Of a DNA stretch of 64,000 nt, positions 2,831 to 38,133 are shown piece by piece. Origin of the DNA: Nilaparvata lugens (taxonomy: Eukaryota; Arthropoda; Insecta; Hemiptera; Delphacidae); contig NC_052507.1 of the NCBI RefSeq assembly GCF_014356525.2, forward strand, positions 4,390,509-4,454,508, in the 5' to 3' direction. Below the pieces are notes generated by a model, which saw nothing but the letters and a program-made list of their open reading frames with translations, did not search any database and had not been told where the DNA came from. A program made the translations under genes and the position numbers. Numbering within the stretch: the stretch's first letter is position 1; each line of letters starts with the position of its first letter.

Positions 2831-3572
2831 TGCTGGCAATGTAGATGAAAATCCTGTTGCTCATATTTTCTGTTATAGGATAGTCTGTGATCATTAGGAA
2901 CCAACTGAGTTGAAAGTTCTTCTACCATTATTAGAAAATCTCAATTGCATGAATAAATGAACAGAAATATTAGGAAGAAGTCATCCAAACATGGAACTGG
3001 GAACTTCTATTCGTGTATTATTTTTCTGGCCAAAATAAATGCTCACTCACGCTTCGAGTGTAATGAAACATTGAAGGTACAACCACCAGTGGGAGAAAAA
3101 TGTGGAATATGATGAGGAAAATAAATTGGTGTCGGACGCCTACTGAGGAGGTACGAGTCAGGAAATTGGTTTCCATCCAATTTTAGCACTACAGCCAACC
3201 GCCATAGGCGTATACATATCCTTTTGGGGTGGCCAATCGAGGCTTGCACCCCTTCAGGGTGGCCAACCCAGGATGGTACCCTTGGCAATACATCCTTAGG
3301 TTGCTCAACCTAATCAGTCAACCTATCAGTCATTAATAGTTTTCCTCTATTTGTGAGACTGACACTGTATCCTGTAATACTGAAACGGTATTATATTTAT
3401 TCTTTTTTTCTCTATTGATTTATACAATAAGTACATCATCAAATAGATAAAGTTTTACATAGGCCGAAATAGGTTGAGTCTTGTAGTTGTTTACAACATT
3501 TTCAGTCCTTCAATTATCAGAATTATTCAGTAGTAATACCTGATGTATAGAGAAAAACAGTGAGCTATTTTA
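2831..3572. other. unassigned stretch
   Basis: No recognisable element. Short direct repeats (GGGTGGCCAA, three variants near 3220-3270) and an 81-codon minus ORF without known domains are all I see. Confidence 0.4.
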
Positions 3573-3754
3573 AGGTGCGTACAGACTTTCGCTCTGCTCC
3601 GCAATCGAACGTCACTCGAGCAGATCGATTGATGATCGACCGGGGAGCAAGAGTGGAACGCGAGAAGAGCTGACATCTCCCGTAACGTTCATGATCGGAG
3701 CGAGTGCGGAGCGTGCGCGGAGCGTGTTGGAGGCGCGTATATCTGTACGCACCT
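3573..3754. mobile_element. GC-rich MITE (family M3), copy 1
   Basis: Terminal inverted repeats AGGTGCGTACAGA (3573) and TCTGTACGCACCT (to 3754) enclose a GC-rich body with many GAGCG/CGCTC blocks. A near-identical copy lies at 37613-37815. No ORF with a recognisable domain. Confidence 0.8.
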
Positions 3755-4235
3755 ACATAATTTTTGGACAATAAATTATTTGAGACAAAATTAGGAAATT
3801 GAAGACTTTTTGGGCTATAGCCGTTTTTTACTTTCCCGACTATTGTATTGTTTGCTCTATCCAATAAATAGATGAATACATTATGAAGTGGGTACCATTG
3901 AGTAGTTAATAGTAGTAGTTTTGTAGTAAGTTAATTACGGTTCTAATTGCTAGAAATACATCAATTCATTAGAAACCATTTTAGCACAGTCTACCCGTTT
4001 CTAGGATGATAGGAAGCCAAACTCAGACTCAATTTCATAGTTTCTCAGCTTACATTTCACAAGCTGCTTTAGCACTTGTACAAGTATATCCACACACGCC
4101 AAAACCACACCTCTGCTATCTTCCTAAAGGAAGGCATATCTTCTTGACCTTCCTCACCCTTACATTATTTATGAACATAATTTCCGGTGGCTAGGAACTT
4201 CGGAGTCTCTCTGCGACAAAATTCCAAGATCAAAC
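3755..4235. other. unassigned stretch
   Basis: AT-rich sequence with no recognisable element; a 62-codon plus ORF at 4006-4194 has no domain. Confidence 0.4.
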
Positions 4236-6704: not shown

Positions 6705-7151
6705 AAACTTGTATAACCAAATATTTATTGGAAATCGAGAGATTGGTTTCAGTTGTTAAATCATTATGAATAACTTCGATGTTACTATCACTTCGATACT
6801 GATGTTATTATTACTGGAGAACGTTGATTATATTTATTTTGTCGAGATTCCGTGGATAATATCTATAAGAATTGAAAATTCTCAGCTCGAATTCATAAGT
6901 CACGCGTGCTGGCAATTACGCCACGGAATCACTTGAAGAATGCTCTGCTGGTTGGCTGTTATTGTTGCGTAAACTTTGAACTAAAAATTGAATAAATCTG
7001 TCACAAATTACAAATTTGAATTGATTGGTGGGACAAAAAAGGCCTGAAACCATACTCGATGAATTCAGAATCTTGATGTAAAATTACCAAGTTGATCACT
7101 CTTCATAAGAGTGATGATGCGTCAATTGTGTATCTCCTATCCTGTAAATGT
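6705..7151. other. left flank of the LTR retrotransposon
   Basis: No element recognised. The last ~60 bases (from CTTCATAAGAGTGATGATGC) are duplicated just beyond the right LTR at 18927-18970, which supplies an empty-site comparison for the LTR insertion. Confidence 0.6.
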
Positions 7152-7240
7152 TGTGGTGCTCTTCCTGGGGGAGTCACTCTCACCTCCAAGGATAGGACAA
7201 CACACGTAGGGTGATGTAATGCTGTATTTAAATGCCTCAC

Positions 7241-7266
7241 GTTGGGCCGGCAAATCATGTGGTGCG
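7241..7266 (-). other. fossil PBS/LTR-end junction inside LTR
   Basis: GTTGGGCCGGCAAATCA followed by TGTGGTGCG closely copies the functional junction GTTGGGCGCCAAATCA/TGTGGTGCTC at 16323-16348. It lies 106 bp inside the LTR edge, in both LTRs (second copy 16428-16453). The simplest reading is that the U5 edge of the LTR was once here and has since been extended by 106 bp. Confidence 0.7.
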
Positions 7267-8808
7267 TTTTTTAACGGCTTCACACATGTAGGGTGAATCT
7301 TGCACTGAGTCAGTGGTGTAGTGGCTATAAATTTTGCAATGGCGTGTGAGGACGCTGAGTGAACACCAGACTGATTGACTCACTACAAGACTCAATACAA
7401 TTGTCGGAATCGTGGGAGGCCTAAACGCTCGCTCACCCTTGATTCTTCTAATGACAGATTGTATAATGATGAAATTTTTATAAGTAGTGTAGCGGACGCT
7501 AACACTGAATACGGATACCTTAAAATTATTACCTGTGAAGAATGAGCATACAAAATCATACAGGTCGAGCAAAAATCCCGATGTAGATAATTTACGGGAC
7601 TGCGTCTCTAATAAGTTCTGAAGGATTAAAATACGGTATTTGAACCCAATATCGTTCAGAATATACTTCGAGAACAGAGTCTTGTCGGGTTTTAAGCTCT
7701 ATTGTAGGAATTTATATGATCTATGGCTGCCTCTGCTGTACAATTGATGAGTTCGCTCCAAAGTCGAGGTAGGTAACAGATAAAAGCTGATATATGAGCA
7801 GGTAAGGACAAAGAATAAATATCTCGATCTGACCCCGCTCGCTACATCCACTTGGACCTGTTCCAATATCCAGCTTAATTCAATTATTCCAATGATCGTA
7901 TTCGATCGGTTCTTGATGATATAGAACGTATCAGACACAATAATTGACAGGCTTAAGAAATAATCGAACTCAGAAAGCGAATTAACAAAACTGAAATATA
8001 TTACAATAAAATATGTAATCATACAGTGCAGATTCAGAATTTGATTTACAGGTTGATAATAATTTAGCATTAACAGAATAGTTAAAAATTTCTTGTGCTT
8101 GCATGATACCATGCGTGATTCAACAGAATTTTACAATTGATAAAATTTAACAGTTTGAAAAAATAGTGAAAAAATGAATTATAGAAATATTTTTTAAAAT
8201 GTTCGGGGTCGTGGTTCAGGCAGCGGAGGATAGTTAATCAACTACAAATTCTTATAAATTAAATATGAATAAATTCTAGGCTCTTAAATGCTAAAGCGCT
8301 TGTCGGCGTGGCCAATAATTTAACGAAGAAAAATTTATGTTTTTCTGCACTGAAATATTTTCGAAGCGTAGATTGGGGCCCCTTATGACTTATAACTCAC
8401 GTGAAATTCCTTGGTCGTCGTGGTTTTCTTCTTTAGATCAAAAATCGTTTGATCGGCGGCAATCCAGGCTTCGGTTTCAGCACGTGGGGAATTTTAATTT
8501 AAATATCTCCTTCACCGAATTAATTAAGGGATAATTTACTTTAAGCTTTTAAATTTATCGATTGATGAAAACAGAAATTTACGAATAACAAATAAATTGG
8601 CCTAAAATATCGGCTCACAAATAGAACATTTAAAAATCGAACAAGAAATTTTACAAATAGGTCTTTGGTAACTATAAAAGAGATCTACACGGTAAGGATT
8701 TCAAAAGGGAAGTGCTGCTCTTTTCTCTAAGCTTTTAGGCTAGACCTTGCTTCTCGGAATCTCAATGTAATAATTTGCATAAAAATTTGCCATTGGTAGA
8801 ACGCTTGT

Positions 8809-8826
8809 GACGTAAACATGACGTCA
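8809..8826. promoter_or_regulatory. paired CRE-like motifs in LTR
   Basis: TGACGTAAACATGACGTCA contains a palindromic TGACGTCA, the consensus CREB/ATF site, with a half-like TGACGTAA just beside it. Both LTRs keep it (second copy near 17998-18016). Use as an enhancer of the element is inference. Confidence 0.4.
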
Positions 8827-9675
8827 GTGGCAAGCAGTAGAATACAATTCCTTTAATTACAATAATAATTTAATTTATGTAATTCTTAAAACTGCTTAAT
8901 CTTCTAGACATAGTTCCTCTCATACAATGTACACGTGCTAGTGTAACTGATAAGGCAGGGTTGGTGTCTGATAATAGATTAACATGTGTTGCTTTCAAAC
9001 GATCACCGTCTTGGTGCTATTTCTATGCACTGTGATTGGTTTAGACCTACCAAAGAGATTTAATTACCATGTGGTTCAGTTGAATTAAATTATTAATAAA
9101 TTAATATTCTTGTACAATTTTTATTAGGTTTGAGATTATTATAATTAATTTCTGCCATTTTATCAATAATAGAATTTCATGCTATGACCTATTTAGTTAC
9201 AATAAGACCTGACGCATAATACAATTTCTTAAATAATAAATAATTTCAACAATAATACATACATTTATTTTTTTATTTGAAATTCTTGATCCTTTATTGA
9301 TAGTTTTATAATTTTTAGAGATGATATTTTACCTTGCATGAAAACCGGCATGATATTTGACAATGCTTTGAATCAGTCAGCTGCGTTCGAACTGTTTTAA
9401 AAACATCTGATCGATAGTAAACAAAGTGTAACCTCAAAATCAGTGAGCAATTCGTAAATAATTTGTGCTTTATTCGCAAAATAATTATAATTTTATTGAA
9501 TAATTTTCCTAGAAAAATATTCAGTACAGAACGGTACTCTTATCTAATATACAGTTATTGATAAGTAAGCTTTATCGCTCGGTCGCTAACTATTCCTTTA
9601 GCAAATTCTTTCATTTTAAAAGGTAATCACAATTTTTCTCTCTTTTCATGAGATCTATTTGAAAAATTCATCACA

Positions 9676-10061
9676 CAAAAGCCCCCAGGATATTTTAAAT
9701 AGGTAATTGGGAGACGAGTCGAAACAATGACTATTTGAAAAATCCGATATTGTGATGAATACACTATTTCATCTCCTTACTTCTACGAAAACTCAACACT
9801 TAACACTAAAAACAATATATCGTGCACTTTTGGCTACGAAAAATAAATAATTGATTGTTCCTTTCATTGGATACAATCGAAATACAATAATTAATGAGGT
9901 CTCTTTGGATCCTTCATTAAAACAACTCCACAACTTCCATTCACGGGTGGCTTATGAGCAGACCCATAACTATAACAACTATACAAGATTTCACATATTA
10001 CTTCTTAAGATTTGAATAGTATTTGCAACAAATATAGACTTTCATCATTTTTTCATGGTTA
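9676..10061 (-). other. 3' untranslated part of LTR element
   Basis: Between the Pol stop and the 3' LTR. There is no ORF and no envelope remnant. Next to the LTR the sense strand reads TCCTGGGGGCTTTTG, a G-rich but interrupted tract in the place of the polypurine tract. It is a weak match to a normal polypurine primer. Confidence 0.6.
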
Positions 10062-13000
10062 TTACAAGTTTCGACTCTTTGGTTTGGCTTTTACATAAAT
10101 TGGGTGAGAGTGTGATTTTACTTCGGTGACTCGATGCGGTCCTGTGTAAAGATGGAAGAATTTTTTAGTTAACTTGCCTAGGGCATCTGAAGATTTATGT
10201 GCTTTTACCAGTACTTCATCTCCGACTTCATATTTGAATTTCTTTGTAGCCTTGTCATGGTATTTTTTCCTTTGTTTTGCGGATTTGTCTAACCTATTGC
10301 GAACCAGTTGGTATAAGTTTGGGTTAGGTTTATCCGGATTTGGAAACTTGATTAGGCTCTGAATAAATGATTCGTTTCTTGTGCCAAATATAATTTCGTG
10401 GGGAGTGTACCCGGTACTATCACTCACACAGTTATTAATGCAGTGTTCTAGGAACGGTACATATTTGACCCATTGTTGATGACGGTGACTGCTATATGCC
10501 CTCATAAATCTTGAAATTTCTTTCATTTTTCTTTCCACTGGGTTTGCACTGGGAGTGTACGCCGAGACTCTTGACGTTTTAATGCCGGCTTGTTCTAAAA
10601 TTTGTTTCCACTTGGCACTGCAAAAATAGGTTGCGTTGTCTGACAATATGCGCTGTGGTTTACCAACTTCATTGGTCCATCTTTCGGTGATGCATTTGGC
10701 TAATTTTTCACCAGTGATTTTACCAATAGGGAAGAACATTGTATATTTTGAGAACAAGCAGGTTAAGACAAAAATAAAGCGTTTTTGGTGTATAGACTGA
10801 GGTAGTGGCCCATAGATGTCAGCTGATATTAATTCAAGTGGTTGTGAGGGTAAGATAGGTATCATTTCTCCTGCTATATGAAAACGGTTATGCTTTGTTT
10901 TTTGACAGATGTCGCAGGCTCTTATTAACTGTGTAACCTTTTTGTTCAATCCTTTGAAGTAACAACACGTTTTCAGGGCATGTATTGTTTTTCTTATGCC
11001 AAAGTGACCAATTCGTTCATGTGCTTCCAAAATTACGTCCTTTTCTAGGGTGTGTGGTATGACTAGATGCCAAAAATCGGAGTTTTTATTAGCCTTATAA
11101 AACAAATGGTCGTTGAAAACAGTGTAGCGTTGTAGATACTGGTGCTCTTCTACTGGAGGGTTGGATAACTTGCGAATGAGATCTGTGATTTTATTGTCCA
11201 TTGATTGTGCGTTTTTAAATTTTTCAGATGTAAGGAGTTCGGTGTGCAGGAGCGGCGATATATTGAAGGGTAACGGCACTGGTTGATCTTCGGCTACATA
11301 GCATTGGAATGTCGTTTCATTTGCATAGGTGTCACTTCCTTCTCTGGACAAGAAATCAGCAGTTTGATTTCGTTTACCTGGCAGGTGAGTGAGTTCTAGG
11401 TCAAATTCTTGCAATAACAGAAACCATCTAGATAGTCGGTTGTTGGTTAACTTGGCTGTTTTGAAGAAAGTCAGAGCCTTATGGTCTGTGTTAACAAAAA
11501 TCTTTTGGCCTAACAACAACGTTCTATATTTCTTGCATACTTCGACAATGCTTAGTAGTTCTTTTTCCGTGACTGTGTACTTCTTCTGGGCTGCATTCAT
11601 AGTTTTGCTAAAAAATGCTATGACTCCTTTTTCTCCTTTCTCATCATATTGAAAAATTTCCGCACCTAAGGCGTAATCCGATGCGTCAACATTTATATGA
11701 AACGGTTGGTTGAGATTTGGATGATTTAATATAACAGCTTTCAGAAAAGCATCCTTCAACTGGTTAAAAATTGCATCTTCCTTGAGCCCCCATATCCATG
11801 GTTTAGAGGATGATAAAACATGACTCAGTTGTGCCGTATAATGAGACATCTGTTTGTTAAAGCGGCGATAGAATTGTAGGAAACCAATAAAACGTTGAAG
11901 CTGTTTACGACTTGATGGAGATGGAAAGTTTTTTATAGCTGCTAATTTATCAATGTCCTGCATGATACCTTTATCAGTTATGATGTGCCCGAGGTATTTG
12001 ACTTTCTTGGCAAAAAATTCACATTTTGATAATTTTAACTTCATACCACATTTTATTAGTCTACCGAATACTACATCAAGGTGTTGAATATGCTCTGCCA
12101 CACTCTGTGATGAAATAATTGCATCATCAACGTAAAGAGCACAAAAGTCTGAAATGTCTTCACCAATTGATTGTCTTAGGCAGCGTATAAATATAGCCAT
12201 TGCATTTCTGATCCCAAAGGCAAGTCGGGTGAACCTGAGATTTCGGCCGTTGAAGAGGAAGGACAGGTAATCTCGAGATTCTTCGGCCACTTGTACCTGC
12301 CAATATCCGGCGCTGAGGTCGACGGTGGAGTATATGGTCTTGCCATGGAACGTCTGCAACACCTGATCGATCTGGGCGGGAGCTTCACGGTCGTCGTCGA
12401 GAATCATATTCAGCTGGCGGGCGTCGAGACAGAGTCGGGTGGAGCCGTCCTTCTTCGAAACGCAGGTAATAGGCAAACTATAATGCGATGTGGATGGTTC
12501 GATAATGCCTAGTCTTTCCATCCTATCTATTTCGGCAGCTGCTGCTTGACGGTGCGCAAAAGGGATGGGATAAGATTTTCTATAATACGACTCATGTGGT
12601 TTGACCTCTAATTTACACTGAAAATGATTTGCCAATCCTGGCTGTTCTGAAAATACTGCACGATTTTTTATGAACATTTCTTTCATGGATTGTTTGATAG
12701 CGAGCCCCCATTCAGAATTGTTATCAATCTCATTCAGTAACTTTTCCATCAGAATGTCAGTATCATCTGGTGTTTCATTTTCCAAGCTGTAGTCATTCAC
12801 TGAATCATGACTCATCATTTCACTTTCTTCACCTTCTCTGTATTGCACCTTGTATTCATTTTCAGGAATGTAGTCTTCAACCATGTGATATCTCACTACT
12901 CTTACATCTCCCGCATTGGCCTTTAATACTATCTGAGTATTGATGCTAGTCCGATTGCTATTGTCGATTAATTGCAGTTCAAGATTTTTGAAATTTATGT

Positions 13001-13451
13001 TTGAGTTATAATGGGCTAAGAAATCAGCACCAATAATAATGTGTGGTCCATTTGCAGGTAATACCAGGAAGGAGTATGGGAAGCACTTTCCTTCGACTTG
13101 GATCTCCAGGAGGCATTGTTTAGATATTCGGAGACGACGTCCTGGTGTGACACCTGATAGGTAGGTTGAGGTTAACGGTAATGTGGCTATTTCTGTTATG
13201 TTTTTCAGGCGGGAATAAGAATCATTCTGGATTAAGCTAACTTGTGATCCAGTATCTATGAGAGCTTTGAATTGTAGGCTGGCTATTTGTATGGTTATAT
13301 AGGTTTGAAAATGTTCATGTATTTCTTGGATGCTGGAGTTTTCTTCTTCTAGTAAGGTTTCTCTGATGTTATTATATAGTGTGGTAAGGCAGGTAGGTTC
13401 TTTTCCTGTATCTGGAGCAGTGGGGTTGTCTAGATTTTCCATTCCATTCAT
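10062..13451 (-). CDS. pol: Pol polyprotein (PR-RT-RNase H-IN)
   Basis: A retrotransposon polyprotein of 1129 residues from its first methionine. The aspartic protease has LIDTG at about 64-68. Reverse transcriptase spans about 280-450, with FGIRNA near 412 and catalytic YVDD at 440-443. RNase H has VDASDYALG near 588, TEKELLS near 628 and NTDHKAL near 654. Integrase has a zinc domain HX4H (811, 816) and CX2C (846, 849), then a catalytic core with D878, D938 and E973. A basic C-terminal tail with EVGDEVLVKA and a GPY-like TGPHRV lacks a chromodomain. All catalytic residues I looked for are present. The frame is open another 69 codons upstream to the Gag stop, so translation probably enters by UGA readthrough rather than at this methionine. 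Confidence 0.95.
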   Translation of the reverse strand: MNGMENLDNPTAPDTGKEPTCLTTLYNNIRETLLEEENSSIQEIHEHFQTYITIQIASLQFKALIDTGSQVSLIQNDSYSRLKNITEIATLPLTSTYLSGVTPGRRLRISKQCLLEIQVEGKCFPYSFLVLPANGPHIIIGADFLAHYNSNINFKNLELQLIDNSNRTSINTQIVLKANAGDVRVVRYHMVEDYIPENEYKVQYREGEESEMMSHDSVNDYSLENETPDDTDILMEKLLNEIDNNSEWGLAIKQSMKEMFIKNRAVFSEQPGLANHFQCKLEVKPHESYYRKSYPIPFAHRQAAAAEIDRMERLGIIEPSTSHYSLPITCVSKKDGSTRLCLDARQLNMILDDDREAPAQIDQVLQTFHGKTIYSTVDLSAGYWQVQVAEESRDYLSFLFNGRNLRFTRLAFGIRNAMAIFIRCLRQSIGEDISDFCALYVDDAIISSQSVAEHIQHLDVVFGRLIKCGMKLKLSKCEFFAKKVKYLGHIITDKGIMQDIDKLAAIKNFPSPSSRKQLQRFIGFLQFYRRFNKQMSHYTAQLSHVLSSSKPWIWGLKEDAIFNQLKDAFLKAVILNHPNLNQPFHINVDASDYALGAEIFQYDEKGEKGVIAFFSKTMNAAQKKYTVTEKELLSIVEVCKKYRTLLLGQKIFVNTDHKALTFFKTAKLTNNRLSRWFLLLQEFDLELTHLPGKRNQTADFLSREGSDTYANETTFQCYVAEDQPVPLPFNISPLLHTELLTSEKFKNAQSMDNKITDLIRKLSNPPVEEHQYLQRYTVFNDHLFYKANKNSDFWHLVIPHTLEKDVILEAHERIGHFGIRKTIHALKTCCYFKGLNKKVTQLIRACDICQKTKHNRFHIAGEMIPILPSQPLELISADIYGPLPQSIHQKRFIFVLTCLFSKYTMFFPIGKITGEKLAKCITERWTNEVGKPQRILSDNATYFCSAKWKQILEQAGIKTSRVSAYTPSANPVERKMKEISRFMRAYSSHRHQQWVKYVPFLEHCINNCVSDSTGYTPHEIIFGTRNESFIQSLIKFPNPDKPNPNLYQLVRNRLDKSAKQRKKYHDKATKKFKYEVGDEVLVKAHKSSDALGKLTKKFFHLYTGPHRVTEVKSHSHPIYVKAKPKSRNL

Positions 13452-13661
13452 TTTTGCAGGTTGGGTGGGCTTAAACCGTATAGAGCGGCAACGACGGTAG
13501 ATTCCTCTGAGTTTCGGTTGTTTACCTTGGATTATTTCGACTGGCGGGGTTGACGGATCAGTATTTTTACTTGGCGGTTGTTCTTCTGCTAATTGATTAT
13601 CATTTCTCTCCGTGTGTAGACAGGTGATGGACGACTGTGGCGGGTGATTTCCATATAGTCA
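13452..13661 (-). promoter_or_regulatory. Gag-Pol junction with UGA-CUA readthrough signal
   Basis: Gag ends AAA ATA TGA CTA TAT (sense strand, TGA at 13661-13659). The next 69 codons to the Pol methionine are in the same frame and have no stop, shown by my codon-by-codon reading. UGA followed by CUA is the leaky stop context known from alphaviruses and some animal genes. A readthrough product would be a single Gag-Pol of about 1867 residues. I saw no obvious downstream stem-loop but could not fold it. Confidence 0.8.
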
Positions 13662-15665
13662 TATTTTCTGCGGCGTTGATGACCCTTGTGTTTTCTCAGC
13701 CATATCCGATTTTCTTCCCTGATTTTCGTTGGGCGTCGTTTGATGTTGATTTGCGCTCGCATTTCCCATCCGGTTGTAGTTGTTGTTCCGGCTATGCGCG
13801 GCGTTGTTGGAGTATTGGTTACGGTGTTGGTTTATACGGTCTCGTCCATCATGGTAGTACGCGTTTCTCCGGTTAGTATCCGACTGCTGGTTGTAGTTCT
13901 GGAAATTCCTCCTACTTTCTGGTTGGTTTTCTTTATTTAATCGCTGTTGAAAATTTGTGTTGCGATCCTGGTTATTTGCAGAATTAAAGGGACGACGGGC
14001 GTTAGAAAAGGGAGAAGTATTTTGTTGGGGTTGATGATCTTGATGCGGATGCTCTTGTCGCACAGTGAAGTTGTAATCTTCGCGATGTACCGCTTGTATT
14101 TCGTGGAGATGATTTTCCAATTCTTTGATGGTCTTAACATGACTAGTCGCTAGTGCCATCTGTACGGGGTAAGGCAGCTTCCGGATAATGATCTGAGTGA
14201 GTGCTAACTCGGCAAAAGGTGTATCTAGTTGTGAATTTTGGTATCTGATGTTTGATACGAAGGCGGTGCATGTTTGGCCATTTCTAGGTGAATATTTGCA
14301 GGATACGATATCAGATAATATAACTCGCTGTCGATCTTGTCCCCAATATTGCTCTAGGAAAGCATCTATGAATTCGGATAAACTATTAAATTCGGCGGCG
14401 CGTCCGTGAAGGAAAAGTAATGGTTCTCCAGACAACAGAGTAAATAGTTTGAATTTCCATATGGGCCAGGGTGTGGGGGTAAGTTCTTGAACAGATCTCA
14501 GTTGTTCGACGAAGGGTTTTGGGGGCATAGACGCCGGAGTGTCATCAAAATGTCCTAGGTTTTGAAAAATTGTGGTGGTGTTGTACGACTCTGAGGGCGA
14601 TGACAGTTCTAGATTGGCTCGAGAGTGACCTATGCGGGTTTCCATCTGAGTGATTCGGGTATCCGTCTGCTCAAATCTTTTTCGGACCTCGGCATCAACA
14701 CTCTTCCTTTGCTCAGCGGCAGTATCACACCGTCTATGTAGGTCGCTGTATTGTATAGTTAAGCTGTCCACCTGAGAGCTAATAGCAGTTTGCTTTTCAT
14801 TCAGGGTGTTAACATGGCTCTTCAAATTTGTTGTATTGGATGTAATGGGTGCAAGTTGCCCTTCTACTCGCCGTATAATGTCCTCGTGTTCATTTTGACA
14901 TGTAGAGATTTGTTCATTTAGTTTGGCCTGCACGCTCTGAGTTATCTGCTCTCCTGCTTTGGTGCAATGCTGTTTGGCTTGCTCAACTACTTTCTCTTTC
15001 AGAGTATCCATCTCCACGCGTATGTGTTCTTTTAAGGTGACCTCGACGTTGACTACCTTCGTATGCATATCTTGTGATATCTGATCCAATCGGTTATTTG
15101 TTTCTGCAATGGATTTATCTAGACGCTCAGTTAATTTTTTGATGGTTTTATCTGTGTCACGGAATGCTACATCCATCCGCTGACTCAATTTCTCCAAACC
15201 CTGTTCGCTTACCTTCTTTGCTTCTTGAACTTCCATTTTTAACTCTTCCTTTGTTTGGTCGCTTTTTTCATTTAAGTTTTTTATTTCTGCATTTGTTTTA
15301 TTTATTGCTTCATTGGTTTTCCTTATTTCTTTCAGGATGAGGGTCCAGTCAACGGCGGGAGTGGGTGCATGGTTATCGGTTAGCCGCTGGTTTTTTATCC
15401 GAGCAACGGTGCGAGAAATGGGGGTTCCTGTTTCTGAGACGTCATCGACTGAGTGCTCTTCGGATGTTTCATCCTCCGGCTCTTGGGCTACCAACGTATC
15501 CTCCACCAGAATGCAGCTCTCCTCCACCTGCGTCGAAGATAAATCATCCAGTACATTGGGATGGAAATCGGCGGATGCGGCGGCAGATGCGGATGGCGGC
15601 GAACAATCGGGTGAGATGTCTTCGGTGTCCGACAGACTTGGATTGACCTGGTCGTTTCCTGCCAT
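13659..15665 (-). CDS. gag: Gag polyprotein with long coiled coil
   Basis: Structural protein of the LTR element. I start it at the methionine at 15665 (MAGNDQV), giving 668 residues. The frame extends 21 codons further to a methionine at 15728, but that extension is Cys/aromatic-rich and unlike the acidic Ser/Asp-rich start of Gag. About residues 100-370 are rich in heptad-like Lys/Glu/Leu/Asn (for example LNEKSDQTKEELKMEVQEAK), predicting a long coiled coil. A capsid-like region follows (WPIWKFKLFTLLSG, then FIDAFLEQYWGQ, about 390-560). The C-terminus is Asn/Gln/Arg-rich and basic with no CCHC zinc knuckle. It is followed by UGA and in-frame Pol. The coiled coil is unusually long for a gypsy Gag. 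Confidence 0.9.
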   Translation of the reverse strand: MAGNDQVNPSLSDTEDISPDCSPPSASAAASADFHPNVLDDLSSTQVEESCILVEDTLVAQEPEDETSEEHSVDDVSETGTPISRTVARIKNQRLTDNHAPTPAVDWTLILKEIRKTNEAINKTNAEIKNLNEKSDQTKEELKMEVQEAKKVSEQGLEKLSQRMDVAFRDTDKTIKKLTERLDKSIAETNNRLDQISQDMHTKVVNVEVTLKEHIRVEMDTLKEKVVEQAKQHCTKAGEQITQSVQAKLNEQISTCQNEHEDIIRRVEGQLAPITSNTTNLKSHVNTLNEKQTAISSQVDSLTIQYSDLHRRCDTAAEQRKSVDAEVRKRFEQTDTRITQMETRIGHSRANLELSSPSESYNTTTIFQNLGHFDDTPASMPPKPFVEQLRSVQELTPTPWPIWKFKLFTLLSGEPLLFLHGRAAEFNSLSEFIDAFLEQYWGQDRQRVILSDIVSCKYSPRNGQTCTAFVSNIRYQNSQLDTPFAELALTQIIIRKLPYPVQMALATSHVKTIKELENHLHEIQAVHREDYNFTVRQEHPHQDHQPQQNTSPFSNARRPFNSANNQDRNTNFQQRLNKENQPESRRNFQNYNQQSDTNRRNAYYHDGRDRINQHRNQYSNNAAHSRNNNYNRMGNASANQHQTTPNENQGRKSDMAEKTQGSSTPQKI

Positions 15666-16338
15666 AGTTTGCGGAAAAATAGCGTTAACATAAAAATGAC
15701 AAGGACACACAGGATACACAGTGAACACTTATGCGGTAATACAGGTACGCCTCTTATAATTTATTATTACTATTATTATAAATATCTTACTTTTATAATT
15801 TCTTGCCGCAATTCAATATATAGGCTAGTGTTCTTTGCACAATTTTATATAAAAGCAGTGATACTCTGCTTAAATTATTCCGCAATATATCCGTGATTTA
15901 ATTTTACTTCCCTCTTTATGTTTTAAAAACTTTTAAAAATGTAAATAACTTCAATCCTCTTTTCTGTAAATATTTATAAATTGTTTCAATATAGACCTAA
16001 TATTCTTCAAATAATATGACCTTTCTTATGGTGTTTCTTAAACCTATGACTTATAGTATGACCAATTTTCGAATAACACGATAATAAAATTCTGAGTTCG
16101 ATTCTTTCTCTAAAAATTCATCAATCGATAAATTTCTTTTCTGTTCAAAAATTGGGTATGGTACGACTTGTTATTTTATATAACAGTGAACAGTTAATAT
16201 TAAATTCGAAGAAATTCACAACCATGAATTTTTCACAAATTTTCCCGTTGTCAGCGCTATAGTATACTGAGCAACTAAATAATCCTCGCAGTCGATTATC
16301 CACCTCTTCAATGCCTATCACTGTTGGGCGCCAAATCA
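15666..16338 (-). other. 5' leader of LTR element
   Basis: The 673-bp AT-rich untranslated leader between the primer binding site and Gag. It holds no ORF of note. Packaging signals cannot be identified by eye. Confidence 0.7.
16323..16333 (-). promoter_or_regulatory. primer binding site (tRNA-Lys type)
   Basis: On the sense strand TGGCGCCCAAC follows the 5' LTR after five bases (TGATT). It matches the 3' end complement of insect tRNA-Lys as I recall it; after these 11 bases the match weakens (AGTGATAGG). The fossil site in the LTR continues with a better match (GTGAGGC). Confidence 0.75.
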
Positions 16339-18865
16339 TGTGGTGCTCTTCCTGGGGGAGTCACTCTCACCTCCAAGGATAGGACAACACACGTAGGGTG
16401 ATGTAATGCTGTATTTAAATGCCTCACGTTGGGCCGGCAAATCATGTGGTGCGTTTTTTAACGGCTTCACACATGTAGGGTGAATCTTGCACTGAGTCAG
16501 TGGTGTAGTGGCTATAAATTTTGCAATGGCGTGTGAGGACGCTGAGTGAACACCAGACTGATTGACTCACTACAAGACTCAATACAATTGTCGGAATCGC
16601 GGGAGGCCTAAACGCTCGCTCACCCTTGATTCTTCTAATGACAGATTGTATAATGATGAAATTTTTATAAGTAGTGTAGCGGACGCTAAACACTGAATAC
16701 GGATACCTTAAAATTATTACCTGTGAAGAATGAGCATACAAAATCATACAGGTCGAGCAAAAATCCCGATGTAGATAATTTACGGGACTGCGTCTCTAAT
16801 AAGTTCTGAAGGATTAAAATACGGTATTTGAACCCAATATCGTTCAGAATATACTTCGAGAACAGAGTCTTGTCGGGTTTTAAGCTCTATTGTAGGAATT
16901 TATATGATCTATGGCTGCCTCTGCTGTACAATTGATGAGTTCGCTCCTAAGTCGAGGTAGGTAACAGATAAAAGCTGATATATGAGCAGGTAAGGACAAA
17001 GAATAAATATCTCGATCTGACCCCACTCGCTACATCCACTTAGACCTGTTCCAATATCCAGCTTAATTCAATTATTCCAATGATCGTATTCGATCGGTTC
17101 TTGATGATATAGAACGTATCAGACACAATAATTGACAGGCTTAAGAAATAATCGAACTCAGAAAGCGAATTAACAAAACTGAAATATATTACAATAAAAT
17201 ATGTAATCATACAGTGCAGATTCAGAATTTGATTTACAGGTTGATAATAATTCAGCATTAACAGAAGTAATTAAAAATTTCTTGTGCTTGCATGATACCA
17301 TGCGTGATTCAACAGAATTTTACAATTGATAAAATTGAACAGTTTTGAAAAAATAGTGAAAAAATGAATTATAGAAATATTTTTTAAAATGTTCGGGGTC
17401 GTGGTTCAGGCAGCGGAGGATAGTTAATCAACTACAAATTCTTATAAATTAAATGTGAATAAATTCTAGGCTCTTAAATGTTAAAGCGCTTGTCGGCGTG
17501 GCCAATAATTTAACGAAGAAAAATTTATGTTTTTCTGCACTGAAATATTTTCGAAGCGTAGATTGGGGCCCCTTATGACTTATAACTCACGTGAAATTCC
17601 TTGGTCGTCGTGGTTTTCTTCTTTAGATCAAAAATCGTTTGATCGGCGGCAATCCAGGCTTCGGTTTCAGCACGTGGGGAATTTTAATTTAAATATCTCC
17701 TTCACCGAATTAATTAAGGGATAATTTACTTTAAGCTTTTAAATTTATCGATTGATGAAAACAGAAATTTACGAATAACAAATAAATTGGCCTAAAATAT
17801 CGGCTCACAAATAGAACATTTAAAAATCGAACAAGAAATTTTACAAATAGGTCTTTGGTAACTATAAAAGAGATCTACACGGTAAGGATTTCAAAAGGGA
17901 AGTGCTGCTCTTTTCTCTAAGCTTTTAGGCTAGACCTTGCTTCTCGGAATCTCAATGTAATAATTTGCATAAAAATTTGCCATTGGTAGAACGCTTGTGA
18001 CGTAAACATGACGTCAGTGGCAAGCAGTAGAATACAATTCCTTTAATTACAATAATAATTTAATTTATGTAATTCTTAAAACTGCTTAATCTTATAGACA
18101 TAGTTCCTCTCATACAATGTACACGTGCTAGTGTAACTGATAAGGCAGGGTTGGTGTCTGATAATAGATTAACATGTGTTGCTTTCAAACGATCACCGTC
18201 TTGGTGCTATTTCTATGCACTGTGATTGGTTTAGACCTACCAAAGAGATTTAATTACCATGTGGTTCAGTTGAATTAAATTATTAATAAATTAATATTCT
18301 TGTACAATTTTTATTAGGTTTGAGATTATTATAATTAATTTCTGCCATTTTATCAATAATAGAATTTCATGCTATGACCTATTTAGTTACAATAAGACCT
18401 GACGCATAATACAATTTCTTAAATAATAAATAATTTCAACAATAATACATACATTTATTTTTTTATTTGAAATTCTTGATCCTTTATTGATAGTTTTATA
18501 ATTTTTAGAGATGATATTTTACCTTGCATGAAAACCGGCATGATATTTGACAATGCTTTGAATCAGTCAGCTGCGTTCGAACTGTTTTAAAAACATCTGA
18601 TCGATAGTAAACAAAGTGTAACCTCAAAATCAGTGAGCAATTCGTAAATAATTTGTGCTTTATTCGCAAAATAATTATAATTTTATTGAATAATTTTCCT
18701 AGAAAAATATTCAGTACAGAACGGTACTCTTATCTAATATACAGTTATTGATAAGTAAGCTTTATCGCTCGGTCGCTAACTATTCCTTTAGCAAATTCTT
18801 TCATTTTAAAAGGTAATCACAATTTTTCTCTCTTCTCATGAGATCTATTTGAAAAATTCATCACA
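16339..18865 (-). repeat. 5' LTR
   Basis: 2527 bp, nearly identical to 7152-9675. Differences seen by eye include an extra A near 16688, an indel near 17263, and substitutions near 16599, 17026, 17041 and 18094. It carries the same fossil primer junction (16428-16453) and CRE-like motif. Promoter, R and polyadenylation positions could not be fixed. Confidence 0.95.
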
Positions 18866-18993
18866 ATGTATAGGCCAATTCCTTCATTAATAGTACAATT
18901 TCAAGTTTTCTAGTCTATTACTTCATAAGTGATGATGCTTCAATTGTGTATTTCCTATCCTGTAAATATATAGGTGAATTCCTCCCTTAATAG
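18866..18993 (+). repeat. duplicated target segment right of LTR element
   Basis: ATGTATAGGCCAATTCCTTC continues the left flank across the insertion. A second copy of the whole site follows (CAATTGTGTATTTCCTATCC, then ATATATAGGTGAATTCCTCC). The host site was therefore a tandem pair: one member received the LTR element and the other the hAT-like element. Confidence 0.75.
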
Positions 18994-19910
18994 TAGGGAT
19001 GGGTATCGAAAGACAAAACATCGATGTTTTCCCTCCTGAACATCGATTAGTGAAAAACATCGAACAGTAAACATCGATGTTTTTAAACATCGATGTTTTA
19101 AACATCGACCTGTTGCCGTACATTTTACGGAAGACTATTACATCCTTGGAGTAACTCAGATAGCCTAGTGAAATCAATTTCCTTTCTTATGTACATGTAA
19201 AAGAAAGGGACAAAGCTTTTAAGAAGTAGTTAACAATAAAGGAATATTATTGATTGGCAGCAACGAAACTGTAAGTTAATAAATTGTTTGTAGTTGTAGG
19301 TAATCAGACTCTACGTTATCAACGAATATAAAAAAGAAAATCGAATAATAGTTGAGTCAGAAACCTCTCGGGATATCCTCGAAGATTCTGTCTTGGGATT
19401 TTATCCTAAGCTAATTTTAGCAATCATTGTTACTCATAATCGTATTCATTCAATACCTGATAGTTTTATTTAGGAAATGAGGATGAATAGAGGTGTTTTT
19501 CTATGGCTATCTACACTCTATACCTACAATACGAGGACCTCTATTCCAGAGCTAGATTAATAATTGGTATTGAACGTATGTTGAGGAAAGCACTTGTAAT
19601 AAGAAAAACTCTTTCTTCCTAAGAAACGAAAAATCCAACCTCTTATTCAATTATAAATAGGTATCCAACCTTGACAAGGGCCACAGTTATGTAAATCTTC
19701 AAGAGTATCCAACAGTCTCACATAAAAATACAGAGAGCCTGATTGAAAAATTCGTTTTTGTTGGGAAAAACATCGAATGACCGATGTCTAGGTGAAACCA
19801 TCGATAAGTGAAAAACATCGAACAGTTGTAGACATCGATGTTAAAATCATCGATGTTTGATGTTGAAGCATCGATGTTTCTAAACATCGATGTATCGATA
19901 CCCATCCCTA
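18994..19910. mobile_element. hAT-like non-autonomous element
   Basis: Ends TAGGGATGGGTATCGA and TCGATACCCATCCCTA are perfect 16-bp inverted repeats. An 8-bp target duplication CTTAATAG lies at 18986-18993 and 19911-19918, as in hAT elements. Clusters of the palindrome ACATCGATGT sit within about 110 bp of the left end and 150 bp of the right end, like transposase subterminal sites. No transposase ORF; two short ORFs come from the ATCGATGTT repeats. Confidence 0.9.
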
Positions 19911-20286: not shown

Positions 20287-20810
20287 GCATAAGTTCACTC
20301 TTCTCCATTCTCCCACTCTCTCACTCTCTCACACTCTTACTCTCTGGATCTCACTCTCACACTCTTTCTTACTCTCTTATTATCTCACTCAATTGCTATT
20401 GCTCTCTTACACTCTCACACACTCTCTCACTTTCTCACTCTCTTATTCTCTCAATTTCTCGCTCTATCACACTCTCACTCTCTCACTCTCTATTGTAACA
20501 TACATAAATGAAGAAATCCAAACTAATCTAATCTCTCAATCTCACACTCTCTTACTCTCTCAGACTTACTCACTCTCCCACTCTCTCACGCTCTCTCACT
20601 CTCTCCCAGTCTCTCACTCTCTCAGACTCTCTCACTCTGTCACACTCTCTCACACTCTTACTCCATCAATCTCACACTCTTTCTCACTCTCACTCTCCCA
20701 CTCACTCACACTCTCTCACACTTTCACACTCTCTCACACTCTCTCACACTCTCTTACTCTCTTACTCTCTCAATCTTACACTCTCTCACACTCTCTCACT
20801 GTAGTGGTGG
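20287..20810 (+). repeat. (CTCTCACA)n pyrimidine microsatellite
   Basis: Irregular CTCTCACACT and CTCTCACT units on the plus strand. The 141-codon ORF across it (Leu/Ser/His repeats) is a by-product of the repeat. Confidence 0.9.
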
Positions 20811-21104
20811 AGAGTTAGTGGAAGAATACCTCGAATATTCTTTCCAAAGAATGGACATTGATATGTCCAAAGCTCCGCCAATTTATGTAGATGCATAAAA
20901 ATATTATATATTTTATCTATAGTTATTACAAATTGTTTTTTTTTTCATATTATATACAGCTCAATAATTATTTTCTCAATTTATATTTTGTAAATTCATC
21001 CATAATTTTGCTGTATTGTAAGCTATATAAGTCTATAAGCCAGTATATATTGTAATCTACATAAATAAAGTGCTCAATCGATCAATCAATCAATCAATCA
21101 ATCA
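20811..21104 (+). mobile_element. family L LINE 3' end
   Basis: From GGTGGAGAGTTAGTGGAAGA to ACATAAATAAAGTGC and an (ATCA)n tail. It contains the family landmarks AAAGCTCCGCCAATTTATGT and AAGCCAGTATATATTGTAAT, an AATAAA signal and a tetranucleotide tail. It is inserted inside the pyrimidine repeat. Confidence 0.8.
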
Positions 21105-21840
21105 CTCTCTTACTCTTCCACACTCTCTGACTCTTCGACTCTTACACACTCTATCGCCCCTCTTTTTATTTTCTCTTTCTCACTCACTCTCTCTCACTCT
21201 TCTCCCCTTGATTCTTCAACTCACACTGTCTCACCCTCTTACACTCCCTCCCTTTCTTTCTTAATCTCATACTCTCTCTCCTCCTCTTGATTCTCTCACC
21301 CACACAGTCTCACTCTTCTTATAAACTGGAGTACACAGCAGAAACTCTGTTTAGAATAACGTCGGTTATAACGCTTACTTACTCACTCTCTCTCACACAC
21401 TCTCTCGCTCACTCTCTCTCTCTTCCTCTTGATTCTCTCACTCACACAGTCTCACTCTTCTTATAAACTAGAGTACACTGCAGAAACTCTATTTAGAATA
21501 ATGTCGGTTATAACGCTCACTTACTCACTCTCTATCTCACTCTCTCACAATCTCTCTCTCTCTCTCTTCCTTGATTCTCTCACTCACACTGTCTCACTCT
21601 TCTCATAAACTAGAGTATACTGCAGAAACTCTGTTCAGAAGAACGTTGGTTATAACGCTTACTCACTCATTCTCTCATTCTCTCACTCTCTCACTCCATC
21701 TCTTTCTCTATCATTCTCACACTCTCTCTCCTTCCCTAGATTCTCTCTCTCACACTGTCTCACTCTTCTTATAAACAAGAGTACGCCGCAGAAACTCTGT
21801 TGAGGATAACGTCGGTTATAACGCTCTTGTCTCAAGACAA
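21105..21840 (+). repeat. pyrimidine tract with four conserved cores
   Basis: CT-rich microsatellite in which a core of about 75 bp recurs four times (near 21310, 21450, 21590 and 21755). The core is TCTTATAAACTAGAGTACAC, then GCAGAAACTCTGTT and AACGTCGGTTATAACGCT. Spacing is 140-165 bp, set by variable CTCT filler. Confidence 0.8.
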
Positions 21841-21903
21841 ATTATTATCCTACAACATTATCCAAAGCACCTTGCAAAGTAATAGGCAGCCTGTATAATT
21901 TAT

Positions 21904-32963: not shown

Positions 32964-32999
32964 TTGACCGAACGAAGTGAGTCTGCCATTATAATTATG

Positions 33000-33345
33000 T
33001 TTATATGTTTATATGTTTATATGTTTATATGTTATATGTTTATATGTTTATATGTTTATATGTTTATATGTTTATATGTTTATATGTTTATATGTTATAG
33101 TTTATATGTTTATATGTTTATATGTTCATATGTTCATATGTTTATATGTTTATATGTTTATATGTTTATATTTTATATGTTTATATGTTTATATGTTTAT
33201 ATGTTTATATGTTATATGTTTATATGTTTATATGTTTATATGTTTATATGTTTATATGTTTATATGTTTATATGTTTATATGTTTATATGTTTTATGTTT
33301 ATATGTTTATATGTTATATGTTTATATGTTTATATGTTTATATGT
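33000..33345 (+). repeat. (TTTATATG)n octamer microsatellite
   Basis: About 40 units of an 8-bp repeat with a few 7-bp or altered units. It seems to have expanded from the TGTTTAAATGTTCATATG of family B. Because 24 bp equals eight codons without a stop, all three plus frames stay open and give the peptide repeat MFICLYVY. Confidence 0.95.
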
Positions 33346-33617
33346 TGCGCATTTACGGCGAAGCGCGGTAATAGATTTTCATGGAGTTTGACAGGTATGT
33401 TCCTTTTTAAATTGCGCGTCGACGTATATACAAGGTTTTTGAAAATTTTGCATTTCAAGGATTATATGGAAGGAAAAAGGAGACTCCTTCATACGCCAAA
33501 ATAAGAGTGAAAATCAGACTATAGAATTATTCATCATAAATCAGCTGACAAGTGATTACACAGATGTGTGGAGAAGCCAGTCTATTACTGTATTTGTATA
33601 AGGTCTATATTTCCAAT

Positions 33618-37545: not shown

Positions 37546-37612
37546 GATCATCCATTTGCAACCCTTTCAGTTAGAGGGTCGTATTTGTGAACAGTTCCTG
37601 AGAACGATCTTA

Positions 37613-37815
37613 AGTTGCATACAGACTTTCGCTCTGCTCCGCAACCGAACGTCACTCGAGCAGAGCGATTGATGATCGACCGGGGAGCAAGAGTGGAACG
37701 CGAGAAGAGCTTACATCTCCCGTAACGTTCATGATCGGTGCGAGTGCAAGGCGGGGGCGGAGCGATTGCGGAACGAGGGCGGAGCGGGTTGGAGGCGCGT
37801 ATATCTGTACGCAGC
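37613..37815. mobile_element. GC-rich MITE (family M3), copy 2
   Basis: Same element as 3573-3754, about 90% identical by eye, with AGTTGCATACAGACTTTCGC at the left and TCTGTACGCAGCT at the right. It has an extra GGCGGGGGCGGAGCGATTGC block. Confidence 0.8.
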
Positions 37816-38133
37816 TCAAGTGAAACAAGATTTGATTACCCATCAATCAACATGAGGAACTGATAAGATCTATCGCGATGTGCAATTAGACGTGCAAGAC
37901 TTCCCAATCTCTCTGTAGCACAGTGGAACCTGGATTTGGTAAAATCAGTTTCAGTACATTTTTTCACAGCTCTTGCAATGTATGTTGTTGTATAAACTCG
38001 AATGTTTGTTTGTCTGTTTTTAAAAGCTGTATGGTGTCGCAGTGGTTTAAACGTCAAAGAAAAGTCTCAATTTAGTATGAATGTGTGCAAACATACACAC
38101 AAATATACATGCAGTCCCTTAAAACCTAAGAAG

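Follow-up and report, generated by a model that had tools for sequence, protein, structure and literature searches.

In the fission-yeast Ty3/gypsy elements Tj1, Tcry1 and Tosmo1-3, an in-frame TGA-CTA or TGA-CTG divides Gag from Pol, and an 8-bp motif, GAA TGA CT, is strictly conserved among them (PMC10085805). Transposition of Tj1 reportedly requires the junction stop, and the authors speculate that these elements had a single-ORF ancestor (PMC10085805). These junctions mean that a TGA-CT(A/G) device is already known in the Ty3/gypsy superfamily. In Tca2 of Candida albicans a UGA lies between gag and pol, which share one frame, and a pseudoknot is predicted; the junction alone reportedly gave no readthrough in S. 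cerevisiae and a minor promoter was detected within it (PMC2194720). Murine leukaemia virus has Gag and Pol in one frame with a single stop, UAG, a purine-rich spacer and a pseudoknot (PMC2194720).

The same stop context is known from cellular genes. UGA CUA is the human high-readthrough consensus, with G best at +7, and CACNA2D4, with the context UGA CUA U, showed high readthrough in every tissue tested (PMC4359377). For four mammalian genes, a second study reports that 12 nt past the stop are enough for maximal readthrough and that deletion of CUAG makes it almost undetectable (PMC4132726). Distant stimulators are described for some readthrough genes, VEGFA among them (PMC4359377). Among insect Ty3/gypsy elements, the Osvaldo lineage has a tRNA-Lys primer site and mostly a 4-bp target duplication; in its description, LTRs measure 997-2055 bp in the text and 2137 bp in a table, and complete copies are mostly ~9-12.5 kb, with one of 6.9 kb (PMC3286476).

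The window, by which we mean the whole 64,000-nucleotide (64-kb) stretch of DNA analysed here, contains a complete-looking retrotransposon at 18865-7152 with its gag-pol on the minus strand. Its ends are defined by the following features:

16339..18865, minus strand: 5' LTR, 2527 bp, TGTG...CACA
7152..9675, minus strand: 3' LTR, 2524 bp, TGTG...CACA
18866..18869, no strand: target-site duplication, 5' side, ACAT in the element's sense
7148..7151, no strand: target-site duplication, 3' side, ACAT in the element's sense
16322..16333, minus strand: primer binding site TGGCGCCCAACA, 5 nt past the 5' LTR, read from the sequence

The LTRs differ by 11 substitutions and 3 one-base gaps across 2524 aligned bases, and their TG...CA ends together with the 4-bp target-site duplication are those of a Ty3/gypsy (Metaviridae) element. 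We take the primer binding site to resemble the complement of tRNA-Lys. Only 386 bases separate the end of Pol from the 3' LTR, which leaves no room for an envelope gene. Across the 1866 codons of gag-pol there is no stop or frameshift beyond the TGA at the junction, and blastn and tblastn found no further gag or pol copy inside the 64-kb window. The element is apparently a recently inserted, intact-looking Ty3/gypsy LTR retrotransposon. Its long LTRs, 4-bp duplication and presumably tRNA-Lys-like primer site recall the Osvaldo lineage; at 2.5 kb its LTRs are longer than those reported for that lineage, and, our tree having no named Osvaldo reference, we do not assign the element to it. The excerpts of the Osvaldo description describe no readthrough (PMC3286476). 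Separately, the flanks carry a 49-base direct repeat (92%), at 7101-7149 just past the 3' LTR and at 18921-18967, ~55 bases before the 5' LTR.

Elsewhere in the window, CT-rich low-complexity arrays occupy 20291-20818 and 21242-21873, the second containing a 182-nt stretch four times, in overlapping copies spaced 142, 142 and 166 apart. A simple repeat at 32995-33501, whose translation repeats CLYVYMFI-like words, leaves more than one frame open over ~500 bases. The minus strand also has open stretches at 3568-3930 and 37551-37835; these encode a near-identical peptide (DHERYGRC.LFSRSTLAPRSIINRSARVTF) and therefore probably belong to a dispersed host repeat.

The junction between Gag and Pol comprises:

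13659..15665, minus strand: Gag ORF, 668 aa from the first ATG (15665), ending in TGA
13659..13661, minus strand: Gag stop TGA, the proposed readthrough site
13656..13658, minus strand: CTA codon directly 3' of the TGA, context UGA CUA U
13452..13658, minus strand: open linker of 69 codons, from the TGA to the first Pol ATG
10062..13658, minus strand: Pol ORF, 1198 codons followed by TAA TAA, in the same frame as Gag

The original prediction placed the end of Gag at AAA ATA TGA CTA TAT, with Gag and Pol in one frame and 69 open codons from the stop to the first Pol methionine. We confirmed each of these statements: on the minus strand the TGA occupies 13661-13659, the 1198-codon Pol frame starts at the codon after it, and the earliest in-frame ATG in Pol stands at codon 70. 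Its description of UGA-CUA as a leaky context is borne out by PMC4359377 and PMC4132726. Gag and Pol are thus divided by a single in-frame stop in a recognised leaky context, share one frame and carry no other lesion. The base at +7 is U, and CTA comes next after 24 of the 3096 TGA sites on the two strands of the window. The terminators differ, Gag ending in a single TGA and Pol in TAA TAA, and the stop-to-stop frame of Gag, 13659-15728, spans 689 codons. A frameshift was rejected as the route to Pol, since Pol lies in frame 0.

The domains of Pol follow in the Pfam order protease, reverse transcriptase, RNase H and integrase, as in Ty3/gypsy elements:

12996..13304, minus strand: aspartic protease, residues 119-221 of P0002 (PF00077, PF09668, PF13975)
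11979..12458, minus strand: reverse transcriptase, residues 401-560 of P0002, with YVDD (PF00078)
11403..11792, minus strand: RNase H, residues 623-752 of P0002 (PF17917, PF17919)
10551..11060, minus strand: integrase zinc finger and catalytic core, residues 867-1036 of P0002 (PF17921, PF00665)

In a 12-row alignment (A1), D511, D512, D947, D1007 and E1042 are invariant and the protease residue D135 is nearly so; we take all six to be catalytic. The first 118 residues of Pol, which include the linker, gave no match below E 0.2 among the matches listed (120 relatives).

The domains of Gag were assigned largely from a structure model:

14607..15347, minus strand: long predicted helices, coiled-coil-like, residues 128-374 of P0001, with a break near 260-293 (structure model)
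14079..14594, minus strand: capsid (CA) domain, residues 379-550 of P0001 (structure matches and homology to the Gag of fused Gag-Pol proteins)

The model was built from 5 sequences and is middling (mean pLDDT 59), with residues 401-540 at 74-91 per ten-residue block and the domain edges at 54-65. Modelled residues 379-550 match Arc, PEG10, PNMA2, Ty3, Copia and retroviral capsids, which gives Gag the retroviral/Ty3-type capsid fold of Ty3/gypsy elements. The helical part gave sub-cutoff Pfam matches to PF01442 (E 3e-8) and PF24319, and at E 0.01 Pfam found neither a capsid nor a zinc-knuckle family in Gag. Searches of a large protein database at E 0.001 returned no relatives of whole Gag (7997 candidates scored) or of residues 376-600 (563 candidates). 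Residues 581 to 689 are predicted to be disordered (pLDDT <50), and the junction TGA sits after this tail, between the capsid and protease domains.

Pol residues 90-700, used as a query, gave 220 matches, of which the best 120 were used. The closest among the matches listed is P0003, with 47% identity across 1088 residues. A quick tree of 58 rows (61 were offered and 3 left out by a length cut) places the window element with P0003 (96) and P0004 (100), next to P0008 and P0007; its clade of 21 rows also includes proteins of Bemisia tabaci and Cuerna arida, both hemipterans. Scans of viral contigs gave no pattern match with Pol and, with the 12-row alignment, 60 stretches that fit the pattern, none of them a relative; the scan of prokaryote genome contigs with Pol gave 9 stretches and again no relative. 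As for the architecture of these proteins, residues 1-580 of P0003, before its protease, are asparagine- and lysine-rich; they neither contain a Pfam domain nor match the window Gag. In P0005, P0006, P0009 and P0010, one of them from Bemisia tabaci, an extra stretch between protease and reverse transcriptase shows by eye SGNH/GDSL hydrolase-like motifs, and Pfam gave one weak match there, PF13472 (E 0.052, P0010).

Three of the best 120 relatives, P0021, P0017 and P0018, have a homologous capsid ahead of the protease within a single uninterrupted ORF (E 3e-10 to 2e-8), and their Pol is ~30% identical to the window Pol in alignment A1. P0007 probably has such a fused ORF too, as judged from a weak sequence match (E 0.88). 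In the wider clade, then, Gag and Pol can share a frame with no stop between them, and it is these homologues that make a private nonsense mutation the main rival to readthrough. On that account the element normally has a fused Gag-Pol ORF, the TGA arose in the window copy or in its immediate source copy, the latter having been mobilised in trans, and the leaky context is a coincidence. From LTR divergence we expect ~12.2 substitutions in gag-pol since insertion and 0.59 post-insertion nonsense mutations, a point in favour of this account. A new TGA-CTA anywhere in gag-pol is expected only ~0.005 times since insertion, a rough figure that is based on 6 out of 16794 possible substitutions together with the observed site and assumes the LTR rate and uniform substitution, and it must also land between capsid and protease. 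The rest of gag-pol has neither another stop nor a frameshift. At the LTR rate the coding part should have gained ~3.3 indels; its frames are interrupted by none (probability 0.036), so this rate may overstate change there. We consider a private mutation unlikely.

The linker itself gave mixed signals. Its other two sense frames contain 2 and 6 stops, and 69 open codons arise by chance in 3.7% of mononucleotide shuffles and 4.0% of first-order Markov sequences (20,000 trials each); of 2902 equal-length control windows, drawn from the leader, the 5' LTR and the 3' untranslated sequence of the element, 70 are open. The openness of the linker adds little to the case. Its codon-usage score per codon is -0.061 in frame 0 versus +0.042 in frame 1. 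Coding control blocks (n=25) average 0.075, the lowest, at -0.06, being level with the linker, and the linker's score is equalled or exceeded in 36 of 43 noncoding control windows. Codon usage in the linker is therefore not coding-like and does not support its translation, a point that fits both a private mutation and separate expression of Pol. The test is a weak one, because frame 0 scored best in just 18 of the 25 coding blocks; we give it little weight and read the linker as a low-complexity spacer.

Separate expression of Pol would make the Gag stop a true terminator, with Pol translated from an mRNA that is spliced or initiated internally, or by ribosomes that reinitiate at its ATG (codon 70). 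This ATG (GCAAAAATGAAT) precedes the protease, and a Pol begun there would keep every enzyme domain; the minor promoter reported in the Tca2 junction also speaks for separate expression (PMC2194720). Such a Pol has no need of a shared frame, an open linker or a leaky context, all of which are present here. By a rough test, the last 300 nt of gag and the linker hold no pyrimidine-rich AG acceptor (best of 30: 69% pyrimidine), and two out-of-frame ATGs precede the Pol ATG. Reinitiation past an ORF of 668 codons is generally poor, which also counts against separate expression. We regard it as improbable. Termination-reinitiation at the overlapping ATGA was considered and rejected, because its ATG is not in frame with Pol and, by eye, soon runs into a stop.

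Bypass of the UGA by selenocysteine insertion, a host UGA-suppressor tRNA or a long-range RNA element is very improbable: nothing speaks for it directly, though distant stimulators of the VEGFA type exist (PMC4359377), and Rfam searches found no family, either across 7000-19000 at gathering score or, with E allowed up to 1, across 13300-13900.

Readthrough need not involve RNA structure, and at this junction we detected none. Folds in four windows around the stop gave z scores from -0.11 to +1.71, with no stable local structure by pseudoknot-free folding. The original prediction had proposed folding the 100 nt downstream of the stop; this segment and the first 150 nt fold more weakly than their shuffles (z +1.18 and +1.71), and thus no stimulatory fold appeared within the reach of pseudoknot-free folding. 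For the 60 nt that start at +6 the folding energy is -6.9 kcal/mol, and the same or greater stability is reached by 241 of the 622 other 60-nt windows in gag-pol. A junction of the murine leukaemia virus type, UAG with structured RNA 3' of it, is not what we find, since the stop is UGA and the local fold is unstable when pseudoknots are left aside. The original comparison with murine leukaemia virus accordingly fails on structure, there being neither a stable nested fold nor an Rfam match downstream.

The described systems can be ranged against this junction. Like Tj1, Tcry1 and Tosmo1-3, the window element has an in-frame TGA-CTA between Gag and Pol and needs no frameshift; unlike them it reads ATA TGA CT in place of GAA TGA CT, and, judging by its relatives, it does not come from a yeast. 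The Ty1/copia-type element Tca2 resembles the window element in having UGA at a same-frame junction and differs in its predicted pseudoknot. Murine leukaemia virus shares the same-frame Gag and Pol with a single stop; in place of its UAG, purine-rich spacer and pseudoknot, we find UGA-CUA and no structure detectable by pseudoknot-free folding (PMC2194720). The animal UGA-CUA(G) genes OPRL1, AQP4 and LDHB likewise have UGA CUA and little or no dependence on structure (PMC4132726, PMC4359377). These are cellular genes with short extensions and mostly G at +7, whereas here +7 is U and the extension runs to 1198 codons. The sufficiency of 12 nt in four mammalian genes fits the structure-poor junction, so that a compact, sequence-only signal is likely, unlike that of murine leukaemia virus.

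Together these findings make production of Gag-Pol by UGA readthrough the probable and best explanation, judged from sequence. Most ribosomes would terminate at the UGA and release Gag, and a small share would read through to give Gag-Pol, with the compact UGA CUA context as the main driver and no part for downstream RNA structure. A near-cognate tRNA would occasionally decode the UGA, and the ribosome would proceed via the flexible 69-codon linker into protease, reverse transcriptase, RNase H and integrase, so that Gag would outnumber the enzymes, as is usual. Several points stand against this reading: U rather than G at +7, a linker that is not coding-like, downstream RNA that folds more weakly than its shuffles, the behaviour of the Tca2 junction, and fused relatives that lack the stop. 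Of the original proposal, the frame relation and the leaky context held up, and together with the young, intact-looking element they favour readthrough; the structural likeness to murine leukaemia virus did not hold. Readthrough by the ribosome, its rate, the tRNA and a stop common to other copies are what we infer.

It is about an even call that, in an animal, probably insect, long-LTR gypsy lineage, one change created UGA CUA, a compact signal free of structure, within a fused Gag-Pol ORF and so made it yield two products, independently of the fission-yeast elements with the same letters. Animal Ty3/gypsy elements are often described as frameshifting or single-ORF, and among the matches listed from the open-licence literature we found no UGA-CUA Gag-Pol readthrough in an animal gypsy element. 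If other copies share the stop, compact UGA-CUA readthrough for Gag-Pol, known from fission yeasts, would be a device of animal Ty3/gypsy elements too. This would suggest that the same leaky signal evolved more than once, and the junction would be a natural readthrough test sequence for the cells of its host.
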